Shown: piece after piece, positions 7,085 through 15,348 of the stretch
Layout of the letters: each line of letters opens with the position of its first letter
Position numbering within the stretch: the first letter of the stretch is position 1
DNA from: Halobium salinum
GTDB taxonomy: Archaea > Halobacteriota > Halobacteria > Halobacteriales > Haloferacaceae
Assembly: GCF_026586625.1 (NCBI RefSeq)
Contig: NZ_JAODIW010000010.1
Span: 1-64,000, forward strand
Direction of reading: 5' to 3'
DNA length: 64,000 nucleotides
Notes under the pieces: generated by a model
The model's database searches: none
Seen by the model: only the letters and a program-made list of their open reading frames with translations
Told to the model about the DNA's origin: nothing
Made by a program: the position numbers and the translations under genes

Positions 7085-7160
7085 AGCGGGTGAGAGGTGT
7101 TCCTGTCGCGTCGTAAACGTTTTTCAGGTAAATAGAACGGTCGTCCGCGACCGGGTCCCC

Positions 7161-8096
7161 TCAGAGGTAGCCGAGCGCGGAGAGCTTGTCCTCGACACCC
7201 TCCTCGGTCCCGCCGCGCTCGGGGCGCTCCAGTTCGGGCTCGTACTCGCCGTCGTCCCTCGCGCTAGTCTCGTACCACGGCACGTTCCTGAGGACCGGAA
7301 TCGGCACCTTCGGGTGGCCGTAGACCCCCCACTCCCCCGCCGCGTTGCCGTGGTCGGCGGTGATGACGACCCGGTCGGCGTCGAGGCTCCGGAGGAGCAG
7401 TGCCACGTCGTCGAGCACGTACTCGAGGTTTCGGGCGTAACTTCGCCAGACGCGCTCGAAACTGAGCTCCCCCCGTCGGAGCTTCTCCCACGGGTCCTCC
7501 CATCCCTTCCCCTCTCCGAGCGTCTCTGCGTTCATCCCGCCGGTCAGCGGGTCCGGGACGGACGGGAAGTGTGGCTGCATGTAGTGGACTATCATCCGGT
7601 CGGGACCGAACTCGCGGTGGGTCGCGACGGCGCGGTCGGTGAGCGCCCGTGCCGGAATCGTCCCCCGTTCGTCGTCCCACCCGTACCGCCACACCTCGTC
7701 GAGCACGTGCAGGTCCGCCTCGCTCAACACGCGCTGGCTGAACGGGTTGCCGGTGACGTACGCCGTCTCACGCGCCGCCTCGCGGTGGTCCTCGTCGAAG
7801 GTTCGGGACAGCCACTCGATGGAGGAACTCCCCACCGAGACGAGTTCACCCGGCCGGTCGAGGAACGGGTAGCCACCGAGGGCCGCGACCTGCCGCAGCA
7901 GGTCGACCCGGCAGGCGTCCAGGACGAGCAGCACGTCCCACTCCCTGTCGAAGACGTTCTCCCCGCCGGGGTAGAACGGACTCAGGCGACGGAACCCGCC
8001 CAGGTACAGTTCGTACGCGCTCTCCCGACTCGCCGCGGCGACGCCCTCCTCGCGGAACCGCGTTCGCGTCTCGTCGACCCAGTCTCGGAGCGTCAT
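7161..8096 (-). CDS. Alkaline phosphatase-superfamily (sulfatase-like) hydrolase/transferase
   Basis: 311 aa, start at the ATG at 8096, which overlaps the stop of the upstream gene by 4 bases (ATGA). N-terminal metal-binding Asp in VLLVLDACRVDLL, a Ser-rich candidate nucleophile loop (SVGSSSIEWLS), a middle HYMQPHFP and the C-terminal metal site VVITADHGN with a following GHP. No signal peptide, so it is predicted cytoplasmic or membrane-peripheral. Last of four enzymes of the same superfamily in one operon-like run behind two glycosyltransferases, so modification of a surface glycan or polymer is plausible. It ends in LSALGYL, like its three neighbours. Confidence 0.82.
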   Translation of the reverse strand: MTLRDWVDETRTRFREEGVAAASRESAYELYLGGFRRLSPFYPGGENVFDREWDVLLVLDACRVDLLRQVAALGGYPFLDRPGELVSVGSSSIEWLSRTFDEDHREAARETAYVTGNPFSQRVLSEADLHVLDEVWRYGWDDERGTIPARALTDRAVATHREFGPDRMIVHYMQPHFPSVPDPLTGGMNAETLGEGKGWEDPWEKLRRGELSFERVWRSYARNLEYVLDDVALLLRSLDADRVVITADHGNAAGEWGVYGHPKVPIPVLRNVPWYETSARDDGEYEPELERPERGGTEEGVEDKLSALGYL

Positions 8097-9001
8097 TCGA
8101 CGTACCCCAGGTCTCGCAGCTGTTCCATCGGCATCTCGACCCGGTCGTCCTCGTCGGGAGCGACGCCGCGGACGTGGCGGTCGACCCAGTCGGCCACGTC
8201 GTACACGTCGTCCGGGACGTCCTCGGTCGTCGCGCTGGCGTACGCCCGCCACGAGTGGCTCCCGGGTTTCTCGCCGGCGTCCGCGTCGAAAAACGCCGTC
8301 CGCATCCCGTGGTCCGAGAGGAGCAACAGGTCGTCGTCGGGGCCCAGTGCGGCCGCGACCTCGTCGACGAAACCGCCGACGCGCTCGTACACCTCGCGCA
8401 GTGCCGCCTCGTCGTCGGCATAGGCGTGGCCCGCGGCGTCGAGCGTGTGGACGTGGACGCCGGCGACGCTCACCTCGTGGTGCAGCATCTCCCGGGCCCA
8501 GCCGAACTGCTCGGCACAGAGACCGAGCAGGTCGCGCTCGAACTCGCGGCGGGAGATGTCCTTCGAGACGGCGACCATCAGGTCCCACGCTCGCTGGAGG
8601 TCCGCACCGTCGCCGACGCCCGGCCAGTTGCGCACGACGCCGCCCTCGCGGTCGAACACCGTCTTCCGGTCGGTGCGACCGACGCGTTCGCGTTCGCCGG
8701 TCGCTCTGCCGACGAGGTCTCCGAGTTGTCCGCGGCGGTTCTCGGGGAGCTTCGCCGAGAACTTCGAGGCGAACTCGAGGAGGGGGTTGTCCCACTCGCT
8801 CGTCCCCGACCCGGTGACGCCGTGTTCTTCCGGGTCGAGACCCGTGGCGACCGTGGCCCACACCTCCGGCGTGAACGGCTGGTCGCGGGCGTGAGCGAAC
8901 GTCTGCACCTCGGTCGACGACGCCAACCGGAACGAGTCGAGGTCGAAGTGCTCGACCAGCCCCGCGTCGAGTGCGTCGAGTGCCAGAATCACCAGCGTCA
9001 T
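8093..9001 (-). CDS. Alkaline phosphatase-superfamily protein, nucleotide-pyrophosphatase/phosphodiesterase type
   Basis: 302 aa. Starts MTLVILALDALDAGLVEHF, giving the first metal-ligand Asp. The Thr in FTPEVWATVATG is the expected nucleophile in the phosphodiesterase branch. HVHTLDAAGHAYADD and LLLLSDHGM supply further metal ligands. ATGA overlaps on both sides (8998-9001 and 8093-8096) imply translational coupling. Compared with its neighbours it looks more like type I phosphodiesterases than classic sulfatases. It ends LRDLGYVE. Confidence 0.8.
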   Translation of the reverse strand: MTLVILALDALDAGLVEHFDLDSFRLASSTEVQTFAHARDQPFTPEVWATVATGLDPEEHGVTGSGTSEWDNPLLEFASKFSAKLPENRRGQLGDLVGRATGERERVGRTDRKTVFDREGGVVRNWPGVGDGADLQRAWDLMVAVSKDISRREFERDLLGLCAEQFGWAREMLHHEVSVAGVHVHTLDAAGHAYADDEAALREVYERVGGFVDEVAAALGPDDDLLLLSDHGMRTAFFDADAGEKPGSHSWRAYASATTEDVPDDVYDVADWVDRHVRGVAPDEDDRVEMPMEQLRDLGYVE

Positions 9002-10101
9002 GCGTACCCGAGGTCCTCCAGGTCCTCCATCAGTGCGTCGTCGAGGTCGACGCGTCCCGGCTCGAACCGCTCGTACTCGCGTTCGAGCGAGGGGTCCTCG
9101 GCCGACTCGTCGCTCCACAGCGTCCGCGTCCCCTCGGAGTTGACGATGTGATCGGCGTTGACGGCGGCCTTCTCGTCGCCGTACGTGGCGAACGCCACGT
9201 CCCGGTCGAGGGTGCCTTGGCCGTGTTCCTCCCCGCGGAGGACCGTCGGGACGTCGACGAGGGAGACCACGTCGCCGAGGTCGGGCGCGTTCCGCGTGCC
9301 GAAGGGGACGTTCAGGAGCTCCTCACGCATCACCCCCGGATGCCCCCACAGGTCGTCCTCGCCGAGCAGTTCGCCGTGGTCGGCACAGAACACGACACGT
9401 GCGTCGTCCGGGACGAACTCCCACAGCGGGGCGAGCTTCTCGTCGAGTTCCTCGACCTCGCGACGGTACAGCTCCCGGGTGAGCTCCTTCTCCGCCTCCG
9501 TCCCGCCGCCGCCGACGACGCGGCGGCTGACGGCCTGTGCCTCGGCGCGGCTCACGGGCGAGTCGTCCGGGTCGTAGGGGTGGTGTGGCTCCATCAGGTG
9601 GAGCCAGCCGAACCAGTCGTCCTCGTCCTCGACGTGCGTTCGGAACTCCTCGACGACGGCCTCGGCGCGTCGGAAGGATTTCGGCACCGAGCCGAACCGG
9701 GACTGGAGCTGCTGGTACTGGTTCCACCCCCACACGGCGGCCTTGTACGGGAGGGTCCCCTGCGTGAGGAAAATCGCCCCTTTGTCCTTCAGGGACTCGC
9801 CGCCGCCCTTCGGCGAGTGGAAGCGGTCGAACCCCTCGTCGTAGCCGTACTCGGCCGAGAGGAGGTGGTTCGTCGTGATGCCGACGGCCGGGCGGTCCAT
9901 GTGGTTCGCGAGCGACGACCCCGGGTGGAGACCGGTGCCGTCGGGGTACTCCCCGCCGATGGTCGCCGGGAAGCTGCCCATCGTGGCGGTGCAAGCCGAG
10001 AACGCGCGGTCGTGGGTGGTGTCGAGGTACGACTCCGTCCTCGGCATGTGTTTCAGGTAATCGTATCGGAGCGAGTCGATGGTGACGAGTAGTCGTTTCA
10101 T
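8998..10101 (-). CDS. Sulfatase-like hydrolase/transferase
   Basis: 367 aa. The N-terminal RLLVTIDSLRYDYL carries the metal-binding Asp and the DSLRxD signature seen in archaeal sulfatase-like proteins. The region TATMGSFPATIGGEYPDG contains the candidate Ser/Thr nucleophile. HLMEPHHPYDP and VVFCADHGELLGE are the central and C-terminal metal sites. No Cys-x-Pro-x-Arg formylglycine motif is seen, so phospho- or sulfo-group transfer or hydrolysis through Ser/Thr is likelier than a type I sulfatase. It lies 13 bases downstream of the next sulfatase-like gene and ends LEDLGYA. Confidence 0.85.
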   Translation of the reverse strand: MKRLLVTIDSLRYDYLKHMPRTESYLDTTHDRAFSACTATMGSFPATIGGEYPDGTGLHPGSSLANHMDRPAVGITTNHLLSAEYGYDEGFDRFHSPKGGGESLKDKGAIFLTQGTLPYKAAVWGWNQYQQLQSRFGSVPKSFRRAEAVVEEFRTHVEDEDDWFGWLHLMEPHHPYDPDDSPVSRAEAQAVSRRVVGGGGTEAEKELTRELYRREVEELDEKLAPLWEFVPDDARVVFCADHGELLGEDDLWGHPGVMREELLNVPFGTRNAPDLGDVVSLVDVPTVLRGEEHGQGTLDRDVAFATYGDEKAAVNADHIVNSEGTRTLWSDESAEDPSLEREYERFEPGRVDLDDALMEDLEDLGYA

Positions 10102-10114
10102 GCGTAGTCCAGTG

Positions 10115-11530
10115 TTACAGGTAACCGAGTTCCTTCAGGCGCTGCTGTGCGGCGTCGTCGATGTCGTCCGACGAGTCCCCGTCGCGCCCCGCCGTGAGGA
10201 GCGCGACCCAGTCGTCGAAGTCGACGCCCCACACGTCCGCCGGGGCGTCCTCGTCGACCGCCGCCTGCCAGGACGGGCCGTTCCCAACGTCCCAGACCCG
10301 CACGTCGCCGAGCGAGTCCCGGACGTACTTGCGGCGCTCGTGGCCGTCGTACACCGCGTGCTGGGCACGACGCCAGTAGTCCGCACGCTCGTCCGGAACG
10401 GACGCGGTGCTCGGGCCGGCAATCTCGGCCTCCGCGTGGTCGCGCGTGAACCCCGCGAGGGTGTCGCCGTCGCGGACGGCCTCGACGATTCCGCGCAGGT
10501 CGGCGTGGCTCGCGAGCCCCGGGACGGTCACGTCGTCGGCCTCGCGGGGGTCGATGACGTCGAAGGGGACGTGGAGCAGCGCCTCGGAGAGGCTCGACGT
10601 GTGGTGAATCATCCCCTCGTCGGCGGCGAAGCCGAGGTTCTCGCCGTGGTCGGCGGTGACGACGAACACCGTGTCGCGGCTCGTCTCGCGCTGAATCTCG
10701 TGGACCATCCCCGCGACGAGCCGGTCGAGGTACTCGACGCCCGCGCCGTACAGTTCGCGGATGGCGCGAACCTCCGACTCGTACCCCTCGCCGCCGGCCG
10801 CGATGACGTCCCAGACGTCGAAGTCGTGGTCGGTGAACGTCTTCGGCACCGAGTACAGCGAGTCGTCGAGGCCGCGGAAGGGGAGATGGGGGGAGTGTGC
10901 CTCCATCAGGTTCGCGAAGGCGAACACCGGCCGGTCCCGGTCGTCGGCGAGTTCGCGCTGTAACTCGCGGGCGATGGACTGGCCGCCGAAGTCGAGGGGT
11001 TTCGCGACCGGCAGCTTCTGGAACAGGTCGTCGGCTTTGAGCACCGCCCCGTTCAGCAGCGACTTCCAGGGGTTCTCGTGGGCCATCGCCTTCCGGAGGA
11101 ACTCGCGGTGGGCCGCCAACCCGTCCTTCTCGGTACCGTCGATGTGCTCCTGGACGTCCATCCCCTCCGGGAACCACTTCGACCGGGAGATGGCGGTGAA
11201 CGAGTCGAACAGCGTGTCGAAGCCGAACACCGGGCCCGCGTACACGTTCGCGGAGACGCCGACCCGCCGGTAGTCGGGGATGGCGTCGAACCAGGTCTCC
11301 GACTCGGGGACGGCCATCCGACGGTTCCACGAGTGGACGCCGTGCTCGCGGGGGAGTTCGCCGGTGAACATCGACGCGTGGCTCGGGACGCTCCACGAGG
11401 AGAGCGCACGCATCCCCTCGAACCGGGCCGTGGCGAGCGAGCGGAGTCGGTCCGCGTACTCGTCGTAGTAGTCCTTCCGCACCGTGTCCAGACAGAGGAG
11501 TACGATGTTCGGCGACGGCATGCTCGTCAT
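10115..11530 (-). CDS. Sulfatase family protein
   Basis: 471 aa from the ATG at 11530 (MTSMPSPNIVLLCLDTVRKD); the ATG at 11521 is an alternative. The most canonical sulfatase of the four: DTVRKD metal site, the nucleophile loop SSWSVPSHASMFTGELP followed by HGVHSW, ANLMEAHSPHLPF and FVVTADHGENLG. The nucleophile position is Ser or Thr in a S-x-P-S-H-x-S context rather than a Cys destined for formylglycine. It ends LKELGYL. First of the four superfamily members in the operon order, 88 bases after the glycosyltransferase gene. Confidence 0.87.
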   Translation of the reverse strand: MTSMPSPNIVLLCLDTVRKDYYDEYADRLRSLATARFEGMRALSSWSVPSHASMFTGELPREHGVHSWNRRMAVPESETWFDAIPDYRRVGVSANVYAGPVFGFDTLFDSFTAISRSKWFPEGMDVQEHIDGTEKDGLAAHREFLRKAMAHENPWKSLLNGAVLKADDLFQKLPVAKPLDFGGQSIARELQRELADDRDRPVFAFANLMEAHSPHLPFRGLDDSLYSVPKTFTDHDFDVWDVIAAGGEGYESEVRAIRELYGAGVEYLDRLVAGMVHEIQRETSRDTVFVVTADHGENLGFAADEGMIHHTSSLSEALLHVPFDVIDPREADDVTVPGLASHADLRGIVEAVRDGDTLAGFTRDHAEAEIAGPSTASVPDERADYWRRAQHAVYDGHERRKYVRDSLGDVRVWDVGNGPSWQAAVDEDAPADVWGVDFDDWVALLTAGRDGDSSDDIDDAAQQRLKELGYL

Positions 11531-11618
11531 ACGCTCACCCCAGGTGTCGTCGGCCGGTCGCATAACGGTTCCCCACCCGTTCGACCGTCACACTCGCCGC
11601 ATCGCGAGGTAACGCGGG

Positions 11619-12842
11619 TCACCCGCTCGGCTCCGGCGACGACGCGGGAGCGTCGGTCGCGGTCGCGGCCTCGTCTGTCGCGTCGTCCGCGGTGACCTCC
11701 CGAACGACCCGCCGCAACCCCGCCGCGAAGTGCTCGTAGGCGTACGGCTCGGCGCGCGCCTGGATGGCGTCGGCGTCGAAGTCCGCGGCGTCGAAGTCGC
11801 GGACCGTAGCGCGGACCGACTCGACGGTCGGGTCGAACAACAGTCCGGTGACCCCCTCCTCCACCTGGTAGCGCGTGAACCCCTCGTCCACGCCGAGAAG
11901 CGGCTTCCCGGCCGTCAGCGCCTCGGCGCCGACGAGGCCGAAGTCCTCCTGTTTCGGCGCGTAGACGACCGCCGTCGCGTTGGCGACCAGCGACTCGATG
12001 TCGTCGACGAAGCCGCGAATCTCGACGTTGTCGGCGGCGGCGGCGAGGCGCTCCAGTTTCTCGCGCTGCTCGCCGTCGCCGGCGACGACGAGTCGCTCGT
12101 CCAGCCCGGCGAACGCCTCCACGAGCAGGTCGATGCGCTTCTCGGGGGCGAGTCGCGACCACGTGACGAAGTAGCCGTCGTCGCCCTCGTTCCGCCAGTC
12201 GCCGGATATCGGCGGGTAGACGACCGTCGCGTCCTCGTCGTAGTAGCGACGGATGCGCGCGGCGATGAGTTCGCTGTTGGCGACGAACCGGTCGACGTAG
12301 TCGTTCGCCTCCTTGTCGAGGGCGCGCCACGCCTTCGCGTAGGCCCGGAGCGCGAAGCCGAGACCGGGGTAGTCGAGCCCGCCGATGCGGTCCCGGTAGA
12401 GGTCGTACAGCCAGCGCGGAGGGCTGTGTGGGTAGTGGACGACCTTCTGGTCCACCTCGGGGACGTACGACTTCGAGAGCGGGGCGCTCTCGAATATCAC
12501 GTCGTAGTCGGACAGCGCCGGGTGGGCGTCGGTCATGTCGAGCGCGACGTTGAGCGTCTCGAGCGGGTTCATCCCCTCGTTCTTCCACTCGAGGAGCGCG
12601 CTCGTCGGCCCGGTGACGTACTTCGACTGCCGGATGGGGATGACGCGCACGTCGGACGGGATGTCGGTCCCGCGGGCGACGTACATCGTGTAGATGGGCG
12701 CGTCGAGGACGCGTGCGGCCTCGATGGCGAACTTCTCGCCGCCGCCGATTCCGGGGAACCGGTCGTGGAGGATGGCGATCGAGGTGGAGGACAGCGGCGG
12801 GTCGTCGCCCTCCGTCGACACGTCGGCGGGTTCGTCGGGCAT
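11619..12842 (-). CDS. Glycosyltransferase family 4 (GT-B) protein
   Basis: 407 aa. The N-terminal half begins SIAILHDRFPGIGGGEKFAI, the glycine-rich acceptor-side loop of GT4. The C-terminal half has VTWSRLAPEKRIDLLVEAF, VVAGDGEQREKL and a PKQEDFGLVGAEALTAGKPL block containing the E-x7-E motif that binds the nucleotide sugar. The tail is a Thr/Ala/Asp-rich disordered extension. Likely adds a hexose to a lipid-linked glycan on the cytoplasmic face. Lies between a GT2 gene and the sulfatase-like genes on the same strand, which suggests one pathway. Confidence 0.87.
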   Translation of the reverse strand: MPDEPADVSTEGDDPPLSSTSIAILHDRFPGIGGGEKFAIEAARVLDAPIYTMYVARGTDIPSDVRVIPIRQSKYVTGPTSALLEWKNEGMNPLETLNVALDMTDAHPALSDYDVIFESAPLSKSYVPEVDQKVVHYPHSPPRWLYDLYRDRIGGLDYPGLGFALRAYAKAWRALDKEANDYVDRFVANSELIAARIRRYYDEDATVVYPPISGDWRNEGDDGYFVTWSRLAPEKRIDLLVEAFAGLDERLVVAGDGEQREKLERLAAAADNVEIRGFVDDIESLVANATAVVYAPKQEDFGLVGAEALTAGKPLLGVDEGFTRYQVEEGVTGLLFDPTVESVRATVRDFDAADFDADAIQARAEPYAYEHFAAGLRRVVREVTADDATDEAATATDAPASSPEPSG

Positions 12843-12902
12843 TAGCGAGCCGTGTGCCCCCTGTACAAAAAAGCGTCCCGAAGTCGCCGACCGAACTGTC
12901 GG

Positions 12903-14048
12903 CTACTTGTACGCTTCTCGGAGCTCCTCGTCGACCTCCCAGATGGGGCCGCCCTCGCCGCGGAGGAGCTTCACGCTGGCCCAGAACAGCGACACCTGCG
13001 TGTCGAAGAGGGCGTACGCGGGCTGGAGGCTCCCGAGTCGGTCGCGCGAACCCAGCGCGACGAACCCGCCGAGGCCGAGGAGGAACGCCAGTCCGAGCGG
13101 CGGGAACGTCGTCAGGAAGCCGACCGTGAGCGAGCCGAGACCGAGCGCGAGCAGCCACGGCGAGAGCACCATGAACGCCCAGTTGAACGGGAGCACCACG
13201 AGCCCGTACAGGCCGAGCGACCGGTCGAAGACGGCGTCGCGGTGCTGGAAGAGGAGTCGGACGAGCCCCATCGCGCGGCGGTCCTTCTGGGAGCGGCGCT
13301 TCGAGAAGTCCGAGAAGGACGCCTCCTTGAACCGGATGGCGGGGTCGTAGACGACGCGGGCGCCACCCTTGCGAATCTTGAGCGCGAGTTCCGTGTCGTC
13401 GGCGATGGACTCGGGGTCGATGGGGACGACGCGGTCGTTCTCGAAGGCGGAGAAGGGGCCGTGGAAGATGAGCGTCGAGTCGAGGTGGGATTCGAGGGTC
13501 TGGACCATCCCCTGCATCCCGCGGTAGTCGGTCTCCACCTCGCTGCCGCCGAGCACCTCGGCGTTGCGTCCGGTGACGGCACCGACCTCGGGGTCGGCGA
13601 GGTTGGCGGCCGCCTCGCGCAACGCGTCCGGTGCGATGCGGGAGTCACAGTCGGTCTTGACGACCATCTCGTTCTCGGCGGCGGCGTAGGCGTCGTTGAG
13701 CGCGGCGGCGAGCCCGCGGCGTTCGCCCTCGCGGATGAGCGTGAGGGAGGGCGCGTCGCGGTCGGCGAAGAACGACTCGACGAGGTCCGGGGTGGCGTCG
13801 TCGCTCGAGTCGACGACGACGACCTCGACCTTCGCCATCGGGTAGTCGAGCGCGAGGAGGTCCTCGAGTTTGCTCTCGACGATGGACGCCTCGTTGTAGG
13901 TCGGCAAGACGATGCTGACGGTCGGTTCGTCGCGACGCTTGTCGGCGGGGGAGCCTTCGGGGGTCCAGAGGGCGTAGAGGCCGTAAAACAGCCCGAAGGG
14001 GACGCCCGCGAGGATGCAGGCGACGATGCCGACGAAGAGGAGGCTCAT
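12903..14048 (-). CDS. Membrane glycosyltransferase family 2
   Basis: 381 aa from the ATG at 14048 (MSLLFVGIVACILAGVPFGL, an N-terminal membrane segment). The GT-A domain follows: SIVLPTYNEASIV, VVVVDSSDD, the DxD-type KTDCDSR and a Q/R-rich SKRRSQKDRRAMG close to the usual QxxRW position. Two or three membrane helices lie near the C-terminus (LVVLPFNWAFMVL onward). The longer frame to 14183 is basic and enters the divergent promoter, so I rejected it. It is divergent from aglJ, with about 184 bases between the two starts. Predicted to work on lipid-linked sugars at the membrane. Confidence 0.87.
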   Translation of the reverse strand: MSLLFVGIVACILAGVPFGLFYGLYALWTPEGSPADKRRDEPTVSIVLPTYNEASIVESKLEDLLALDYPMAKVEVVVVDSSDDATPDLVESFFADRDAPSLTLIREGERRGLAAALNDAYAAAENEMVVKTDCDSRIAPDALREAAANLADPEVGAVTGRNAEVLGGSEVETDYRGMQGMVQTLESHLDSTLIFHGPFSAFENDRVVPIDPESIADDTELALKIRKGGARVVYDPAIRFKEASFSDFSKRRSQKDRRAMGLVRLLFQHRDAVFDRSLGLYGLVVLPFNWAFMVLSPWLLALGLGSLTVGFLTTFPPLGLAFLLGLGGFVALGSRDRLGSLQPAYALFDTQVSLFWASVKLLRGEGGPIWEVDEELREAYK

Positions 14049-14232: not shown

Positions 14233-15348
14233 ATGGACCGCGCCGACGTCTGTGTCCTCCTCCCCGCCTACAACGAGGCCGAGACCATCGCCGAGGTGGT
14301 GGACGGCTACCGGGACGCGGGGTTCACCGACATCCTCGTCATCGACGGCGACTCCGACGACGACACCCGCGCCATCGCGGCCGACCACGGCGCCGAGGTG
14401 GTCGTCCAGTCCGGCATCGGGAAGGGACAGGCCGTCCGCGAGGCCGTCTCGCAGTTCGTCGAGGCGCCGTACGTCCTCCTCGCGGACGCCGACGCGACCT
14501 ACCGCCCGGAGGACGCCGAGGCGATGCTCGAGCCGCTGGAAGACGGGTACGAGCACGTCATCGGCGACCGCTTCGCCGACATGCGGCCCGGCGCGATGAC
14601 GTTCCTCAACCGGGTCGGCAACCGCATCGTCAACCGGGCGTTCTACTTCATCCACCGCTACGACTACCGGGACATCCTCTCTGGCTACCGCGCGTTCACC
14701 CGCCGCTCCTTCGAGCGGATGACGCTCACCGCCGACGGGTTCGGCATCGAGACCGAGATGTCCGTCGAGTGCGCCAAGAAGAACATCCCGACGACGGTCG
14801 TCCCGATCACCTACAAGCCCCGCCCGAACGGCTCCAACACGAACCTCCGTCCGTTCCGCGACGGCGGCATCATCTTCCTCGAGCTGTACCGCCGCGCGAA
14901 GACCAACAACCCCCTCTTCTACTTCGGGAGCGCCGGCGTCATCTCCTCGCTGGTCGGCCTCCTGCTCGCCGCCTACGTCGGCTACGAGTGGTTCATCGCC
15001 TTCCCCCGGCGGAGCCACGAGGTGCTCGCCGTCGCCGCCGCAATGGCCCTCATCTTCGGCGTCCAGCTACTCATCTTCGGCGTGCTCTCGGACATGATAG
15101 CCTCCTTCCACCGCGAGCTGCTGAGCCGCATCAACGAGGTCGCCGACGCCGCCGGCGTCGAGGACCGCGGCCCCCGAAAGCTCCGACGGACCGGCCGACT
15201 CGACGTCGACGCGGGGACGGACGACGGGCCGAGGACCGCCCGTGGCACGGACGACGCCCCCGACGCCGACGACTCGCGCGAAGGCCCCGAACACCGGAGC
15301 AGACCGGAGGCCCCCGTCGCGACCGACGACGGTCCGAACGGCGACTGA
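14233..15348 (+). CDS. aglJ: S-layer N-glycosylation glycosyltransferase AglJ
   Basis: 371 aa from the ATG at 14233. AglJ adds the first hexose to dolichol phosphate in haloarchaeal N-glycosylation. The GT2 domain shows VLLPAYNEAETIAEVVDG, LVIDGDSDDDT, the DxD motif DAD at residues 85-87 (LLADADATYRPED) and the family stretch DILSGYRAFTRRSFERM. Two C-terminal membrane helices (about 227-285) anchor it. The last roughly 60 residues form an acidic, Asp/Gly/Pro-rich tail that looks disordered. An upstream frame extension to 14014 is ruled out by the TATA box at 14203-14210. Confidence 0.9.
   Translation: MDRADVCVLLPAYNEAETIAEVVDGYRDAGFTDILVIDGDSDDDTRAIAADHGAEVVVQSGIGKGQAVREAVSQFVEAPYVLLADADATYRPEDAEAMLEPLEDGYEHVIGDRFADMRPGAMTFLNRVGNRIVNRAFYFIHRYDYRDILSGYRAFTRRSFERMTLTADGFGIETEMSVECAKKNIPTTVVPITYKPRPNGSNTNLRPFRDGGIIFLELYRRAKTNNPLFYFGSAGVISSLVGLLLAAYVGYEWFIAFPRRSHEVLAVAAAMALIFGVQLLIFGVLSDMIASFHRELLSRINEVADAAGVEDRGPRKLRRTGRLDVDAGTDDGPRTARGTDDAPDADDSREGPEHRSRPEAPVATDDGPNGD

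Follow-up and report, generated by a model that had tools for sequence, protein, structure and literature searches.

Four alkaline phosphatase-superfamily genes adjacent to aglJ in Halobium salinum: candidate tailoring enzymes of a dolichol-linked glycan

The stretch of Halobium salinum DNA analyzed here, which is 64,000 nucleotides long (positions 1 to 64,000 of contig NZ_JAODIW010000010.1, assembly GCF_026586625.1) and is called the window below, carries a minus-strand run of six genes (7161-14048): two glycosyltransferase genes followed by four genes encoding members of the alkaline phosphatase (AP) superfamily, named S1, S2, S3, and S4. The run is divergent from aglJ (14233..15348, plus strand), which encodes the dolichyl-phosphate hexose transferase starting the N-glycan and was identified with the NCBIfam equivalog TIGR04182 (430.6 bits, cut-off 325); the two starts are separated by 184 bp. 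The first gene of the run (12903..14048) encodes a GT2-family glycosyltransferase of 381 amino acids (aa) with a membrane segment (PF00535, 69.7 bits; maximum hydropathy 2.55, in a scanning frame starting near residue 2), and the second (11619..12842) a GT4/GT1-family glycosyltransferase of 407 aa (PF00534, 84.5 bits). They are followed by S1 (10115..11530, 471 aa; PF00884, 56.6 bits), S2 (8998..10101, 367 aa; PF00884, 33.7 bits), the NPP/phosphodiesterase-type S3 (8093..9001, 302 aa; PF01663, 49.7 bits), and the short S4 (7161..8096, 311 aa; PF00884, 21.2 bits). The start at 11530 was used in the case of S1, an alternative one at 11563 giving 482 aa. ATGA overlaps join S2 to S3 (8998-9001) and S3 to S4 (8093-8096), while the gaps amount to 13 bp between S1 and S2, 55-88 bp between the GT4 gene and S1, and 60 bp between the two glycosyltransferase genes. 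The gene calls and the TIGR04182 match therefore agree with the original prediction, made from the sequence alone, of six minus-strand genes joined by two ATGA overlaps and short gaps and divergent from aglJ. Directly 3' of S4 lies a weak terminator-like hairpin with a T-rich tail (7138..7153, minus strand), three such sites being present in the region vs. 2.3 expected. Since the GC content shows no jump through the run (0.67-0.70 over the run and its left flank, 0.71 immediately to the right of aglJ), the idea of a foreign island was rejected, and a search for DNA repeats joining the genes of the run gave weak matches only.

The assignment of S2 and S3 to the AP superfamily is based on Pfam scores above the cut-offs (25 for PF00884, 23 for PF01663), and that of S1, which also exceeds its cut-off, and of S4, which falls below it, on AlphaFold models. 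The model of S1 (predicted local distance difference test, pLDDT, 88.8) has a clear sulfatase fold, with Z scores of 29.8 to the sulfatase 4upl, 29.4 to 6hhm, and 28.4 to 5g2u, and many further sulfatases score like the last two. The model of S4 (pLDDT 90.8), built from an alignment including 37 of the 39 family members, matches the phosphoethanolamine transferases EptA (5fgn, Z 15.0, root-mean-square deviation 3.3 over 209 aligned residues) and MCR-1 (5gov, Z 14.8), but the sulfatase 6hhm ties with EptA (Z 14.8); Foldseek ranks 1-20 are all phosphoethanolamine transferases. Because the model resembles EptA/MCR enzymes and sulfatases at Z scores of 14-15, S4 was taken to be a true member of the superfamily. 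In a profile search, S3 matched NPP7. Mutual blastp comparisons gave at best 26% identity over 335 aa, the pairs involving S3 being short or insignificant, which led us to reject the idea that S1-S4 are recent tandem duplicates and bears out the earlier description of four different superfamily members.

The candidate nucleophile position is conserved in each of the four families: Ser47 in all 22 sequences of the S1 family (SVPSH, i.e., SxPSH), Thr40 in 7/7 of the S2 family (TMGSF), Thr44 in 14/14 of the S3 family (TPEVW), and Ser92 in 39/39 of the S4 family (SSIEW). S2 also contains D241-H242-G, and D60, D248, H249, and H261 are invariant along with Ser92 in the S4 family. The residues D9, Thr44, D188, H192, D230, H231, and H249 are invariant in all 14 S3-family sequences and presumably correspond to the two-metal set of the NPP structures, which suggests that S3 has a candidate NPP-type two-metal site. 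The catalytic roles of the conserved Ser/Thr residues and D-H ligands are those which we take to be general in the AP superfamily. For comparison, 196 AP proteins were pooled with the use of 40 loci chosen by their S1-S4 hits; this biased set was used for layouts, families, and the pool itself, not for rates. The metal motif D-H-[GASCT] occurs in 193 of these 196 proteins. The formylglycine motif C-x-P-x-R was found in none of them, nor in S1-S4, in keeping with what the original prediction had noted on the latter; the looser C-x-T-x-R gave three matches among the 196, and S-x-[PA]-x-R strings within residues 25-140 are present in 19/196, S1-S4 being absent among the matches listed. No membrane or hydrophobic segment, including an N-terminal export segment, was detected in S1-S4 (maximum hydropathy 0.72-1.47), and we therefore infer that these enzymes may be cytosolic.

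LxxLGY forms the C-terminus of all four proteins and of 181 of the 196 pooled AP proteins, and it is invariant within the alignment of each family. It is modeled with low confidence (55-67 in S1, 67-72 in S4), as might be expected if it docked onto, or packed against, a partner. A protein of about 70 aa resembling ribbon-helix-helix regulators, which is encoded near aglJ in some relatives (e.g., L057:4462-4671 and L069:14161-14379), also ends in LxxLGY; this may be a coincidence.

The distribution of the AP genes was studied in 148 genomes of the same taxonomic family, 142 of which carry aglJ. S1-like proteins are encoded in 59/148 genomes (E ≤ 1e-20) and S2-like proteins in 109/148 (E ≤ 1e-12), where a score of more than 340 bits was reached in only seven places, that in the window being counted; S3-like proteins occur in 17/148 genomes and S4-like ones in 131/148. 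An aglJ-anchored survey covered 20 kb on the 5' side of aglJ in 60 of the 142 genomes, taken in listing order with the omission of G011, G013, G030, and G053 (short or fragmented contigs); genes were called and AP and AglB proteins assigned with our own scripts and hidden Markov models, partly built on the loci of the same genomes. Within this distance, aglB was present in 24/60 loci. AP genes occur in 22 of these 24 and number four or more in 11, and they account for 79 of the 366 genes. In the 36 loci without aglB, AP genes account for 17 of 696, and 25 loci have none. AP genes are thus enriched beyond chance in the aglB-holding aglJ loci; they are clustered there and not scattered, scattering in relatives being the outcome which the original prediction had named as refuting it, and its view of the run as a surface-glycan cassette involving several tailoring steps is supported. 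Its suggestion that four such genes in one run are unusual does not hold, in view of the 11 loci with at least four of them and the same-strand AP runs of four or five genes in 3/24 loci (L091, L092, and L101).

The aglJ-aglB loci commonly contain AP arrays of 2-7 genes, and a layout consisting of aglJ, GT2, GT4, AP genes, a Wzx-like flippase, aglB, and a polyprenyl-phosphate transporter recurs. A strict aglJ-GT2-GT4 order is not the rule: a divergent GT2 gene follows aglJ in 8/54 loci, and GT2 plus GT4 in 1/54 (phmmer, more than 100 bits; in the other 6 of the 60 surveyed loci, aglJ was not called again), while GT2 relatives were present in 20/41 selected sequences upon looser single-linkage clustering. 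The biosynthetic neighbors include sugar-nucleotide enzymes and glycosyltransferases; the other genes between aglJ and aglB number 77 and carry 58 Pfam families, 25 of which were listed. Tandem copies of S4 that are 43-73% identical are present in some relatives, and the arrays seem to grow by duplication and by the mixing of different kinds of AP genes. Several of the AP-array loci also encode an arylsulfotransferase-like protein (PF14269/PF05935; 7 members, e.g., L071:12445-13782 and L043:8949-10325) with an N-terminal hydrophobic stretch, which is possibly a second sulfo-transfer enzyme.

In H. salinum itself, aglB is located at C2:359767, 345 kb from the run, and does not belong to the same cluster as aglJ. 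It is preceded by a fifth AP-superfamily gene (C2:356532-358100, L141:14533-16101), encoding a PF01663 enzyme of 522 aa (129.9 bits) with the LxxLGY tail, and by a flippase gene, the AP gene being located directly upstream of the flippase and aglB; a PopT-like transporter gene follows. This genome therefore has an Agl locus split over 345 kb, with the fifth AP enzyme on the aglB side. A PF04018/polyprenyl-phosphate transporter gene recurrently follows aglB (12 genes in the hit-selected loci; the copy in this genome is at C2:363011-364021, L142:3012-4022), and its product is a candidate for returning dolichol phosphate across the membrane for reuse once N-glycosylation has taken place.

The AP proteins of an aglB cluster have been studied experimentally in Halobacterium salinarum. 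According to the available text of a 2025 mBio study (PMC11980604), this cluster encodes three of them, VNG1056C (Agl30), VNG1057C (Agl31), and VNG1063H; the loss of Agl30 or Agl31 reduces N-glycan sulfation, and each of the two adds sulfate to the glycan of Haloferax volcanii when expressed there. The nearest solved structures named for Agl30 and Agl31 in that text are the sulfatases 5g2u and 6hhm (PMC11980604), which the S1 model matches at Z scores of 28-29. The C-termini of Agl30 and Agl31, as read from the published reverse cloning primers, are HLEDLGYL and LEELGYT (PMC11980604), i.e., of the LxxLGY type. That this C-terminus might be an Agl-specific docking tag was nevertheless dropped as an idea, because it is also carried by a sulfatase encoded outside the Agl loci of H. 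salinum and because C-terminally tagged Agl30 and Agl31 are described as functional (PMC11980604). Sulfation in Hbt. salinarum is reported to take place on the dolichol-phosphate-linked glycan (PMC4335974, available part), which fits the absence of membrane segments in S1-S4. The run in the window is a varied example of arrays for which the first experimental evidence dates from 2025, and no previous description of the array was found in the literature searched.

On balance, S1-S4 are probably cytosolic and act as tailoring enzymes on the dolichol-linked glycan, with sulfation as the most likely modification. The run would form the aglJ-side half of the N-glycosylation locus of this organism: AglJ would attach the first hexose to dolichol phosphate, extension of the glycan at the cytoplasmic face would be due to the GT2 and GT4 enzymes, and S1-S4, as soluble metal-dependent group-transferases with an AP fold, would modify individual sugars before the glycan is flipped and handed over to AglB. 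The active-site Ser (S1 and S4) or Thr (S2 and S3) would take the group from the donor in the form of a covalent ester and pass it on to a sugar hydroxyl. The group transferred by at least some of the four enzymes is most likely sulfate, and sulfo-transfer is the leading reading because sulfate addition has been shown to involve AP-superfamily proteins from an Agl cluster (PMC11980604, available text).

Several points weigh against sulfation. The NPP-like residues of S3 and the phosphoethanolamine transferases among the best solved relatives of S4 fit phosphoryl chemistry. VNG1063H showed no role in sulfation according to the available text of PMC11980604, and the combination of an AP fold with an Agl locus is therefore no proof of sulfation. 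S1-S4 and Agl30/Agl31, which have superfamily, locus, nearest structures, and primer-read tails in common, are putative close relatives, and the tail, occurring outside the Agl loci as well, is not locus-specific. No canonical APS kinase (PF01583) was found in the genome, which is 99.35% complete, although undescribed families are possible, and no PF01747 ATP sulfurylase was found in a search which did not extend to the CysD/CysN type and whose positive controls did not include the glycan-sulfating Hfx. volcanii. The main text of PMC11980604 does not mention 3'-phosphoadenosine 5'-phosphosulfate (PAPS), and a literature search on PAPS supply in haloarchaea listed nothing decisive. Since no canonical APS kinase was found, phosphoryl transfer is a live rival. 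The sole PF01583 match, which is above the cut-off (25.5 bits, model positions 2-54; C11:564282-564440, L140), corresponds to FtsY and is a false positive that could mislead the annotation of this pathway in haloarchaea.

It is a good deal less probable that the groups which S1-S4 add to the glycan in the cytosol are phosphorylated (phosphoglycerol, phosphoethanolamine, or sugar phosphate), the enzymes acting either in the manner of EptA, LtaS, and MdoB or as NPP diesterases working as transferases, but this reading is a live rival, above all in the case of S3, with its seven NPP-type residues and its NPP7 match. The EptA and MCR-1 scores and the Foldseek ranking of S4 also point in this direction, and the Ser/Thr nucleophile and the lack of a canonical APS kinase would suit it. 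The known EptA and LtaS enzymes are membrane-anchored and act outside the membrane, whereas S1-S4 have no anchors, and we know of no haloarchaeal N-glycan bearing phosphorylated groups of this kind. The tie between 6hhm and EptA in the comparisons with S4 leaves room for either chemistry, and the AP relatives of an Agl cluster that have been tested experimentally act in sulfation (PMC11980604, available text). The original prediction had held the transfer of a phosphorylated group to be at least as likely as desulfation: desulfation is unlikely, but the choice is not between these two alone, and sulfo-transfer leads on account of that study.

The four enzymes may also differ in function, S1 and/or S2 being sulfotransferases, S3 a support hydrolase which clears nucleotide by-products or inactive donors, for example, and S4 acting on another substrate. 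S3 belongs to a different Pfam family, PF01663, NPP relatives hydrolyze nucleotide diesters, and a larger PF01663 enzyme is encoded beside aglB in this genome; the rarity of S3-like genes and the commonness of S4-like ones suggest in addition that joint action may not be needed. We regard such a mixed cassette as improbable, however, in view of the ATGA overlaps joining S3 to both S2 and S4 and of the tail they have in common. Still less probable is an action on polar lipids or exopolysaccharide, the proximity of aglJ being a genomic accident: aglB is so distant that the Agl cluster of this genome cannot be called intact, but relatives hold the same kinds of genes between aglJ and the flippase/aglB/PopT block. 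That S1-S4 are catabolic or remodeling sulfatases or phosphatases removing groups, as their fold and annotation would have it, is very hard to maintain, and desulfation and catabolism were rejected given the absence of C-x-P-x-R (0/196), the lack of a hydrophobic N-terminal export segment, and the biosynthetic neighborhood.

If S1-S4 are indeed glycan-tailoring transferases, the haloarchaeal proteins that build charged surface glycans would include ones which are everywhere annotated as sulfatases or phosphatases, and the arrays would predict which species bear heavily modified N-glycans. Surface glycans also have a part in haloarchaeal mating and in the entry of viruses. The arrays would also provide a set of enzymes for working out the donor and the mechanism of AP-fold sulfotransferases, which the 2025 study left open. 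A broader and decidedly speculative view is that the AP superfamily has expanded in haloarchaea into a combinatorial set of cytosolic Ser/Thr-nucleophile sulfo- or phosphotransferases (sulfatase-like, NPP-like, and short EptA-like), which might be shuffled from one N-glycosylation locus to another and give dolichol-linked glycans a charge code particular to each species, with a donor other than PAPS.

Compared with known systems, the run resembles the Agl cluster of Hfx. volcanii, which extends from aglJ to aglB, in having aglJ at one end with glycosyltransferases and sugar-processing genes inward, but in H. salinum aglB lies far off, together with the flippase gene, the fifth AP gene, and the PopT-like gene. 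Choline sulfatase, BT1596, and other sulfatases of the family known as S1 share the fold of the S1 protein described here (Z 28-30), but have C-x-P-x-R where Ser or Thr is present in the H. salinum enzymes. In fold, S4 comes as close to sulfatases as to the EptA/MCR/LtaS transferases, and these transferases likewise use a Ser/Thr nucleophile, but the catalytic domain of EptA and LtaS is extracytoplasmic and anchored in the membrane. S3 has the family match and the candidate two-metal residues of the NPP-type phosphodiesterases, from which it differs by its short length, the absence of a hydrophobic signal segment, and its location in a glycan locus. Agl30 and Agl31 resemble S1-S4 in belonging to the AP superfamily, in their sulfatase-like annotation, and in occurring several to an N-glycosylation cluster (three in that case); Agl30 is a membrane protein, while S1-S4 show no membrane segment, and the run described here adds to this pair the NPP-type S3 and the short EptA-like S4.

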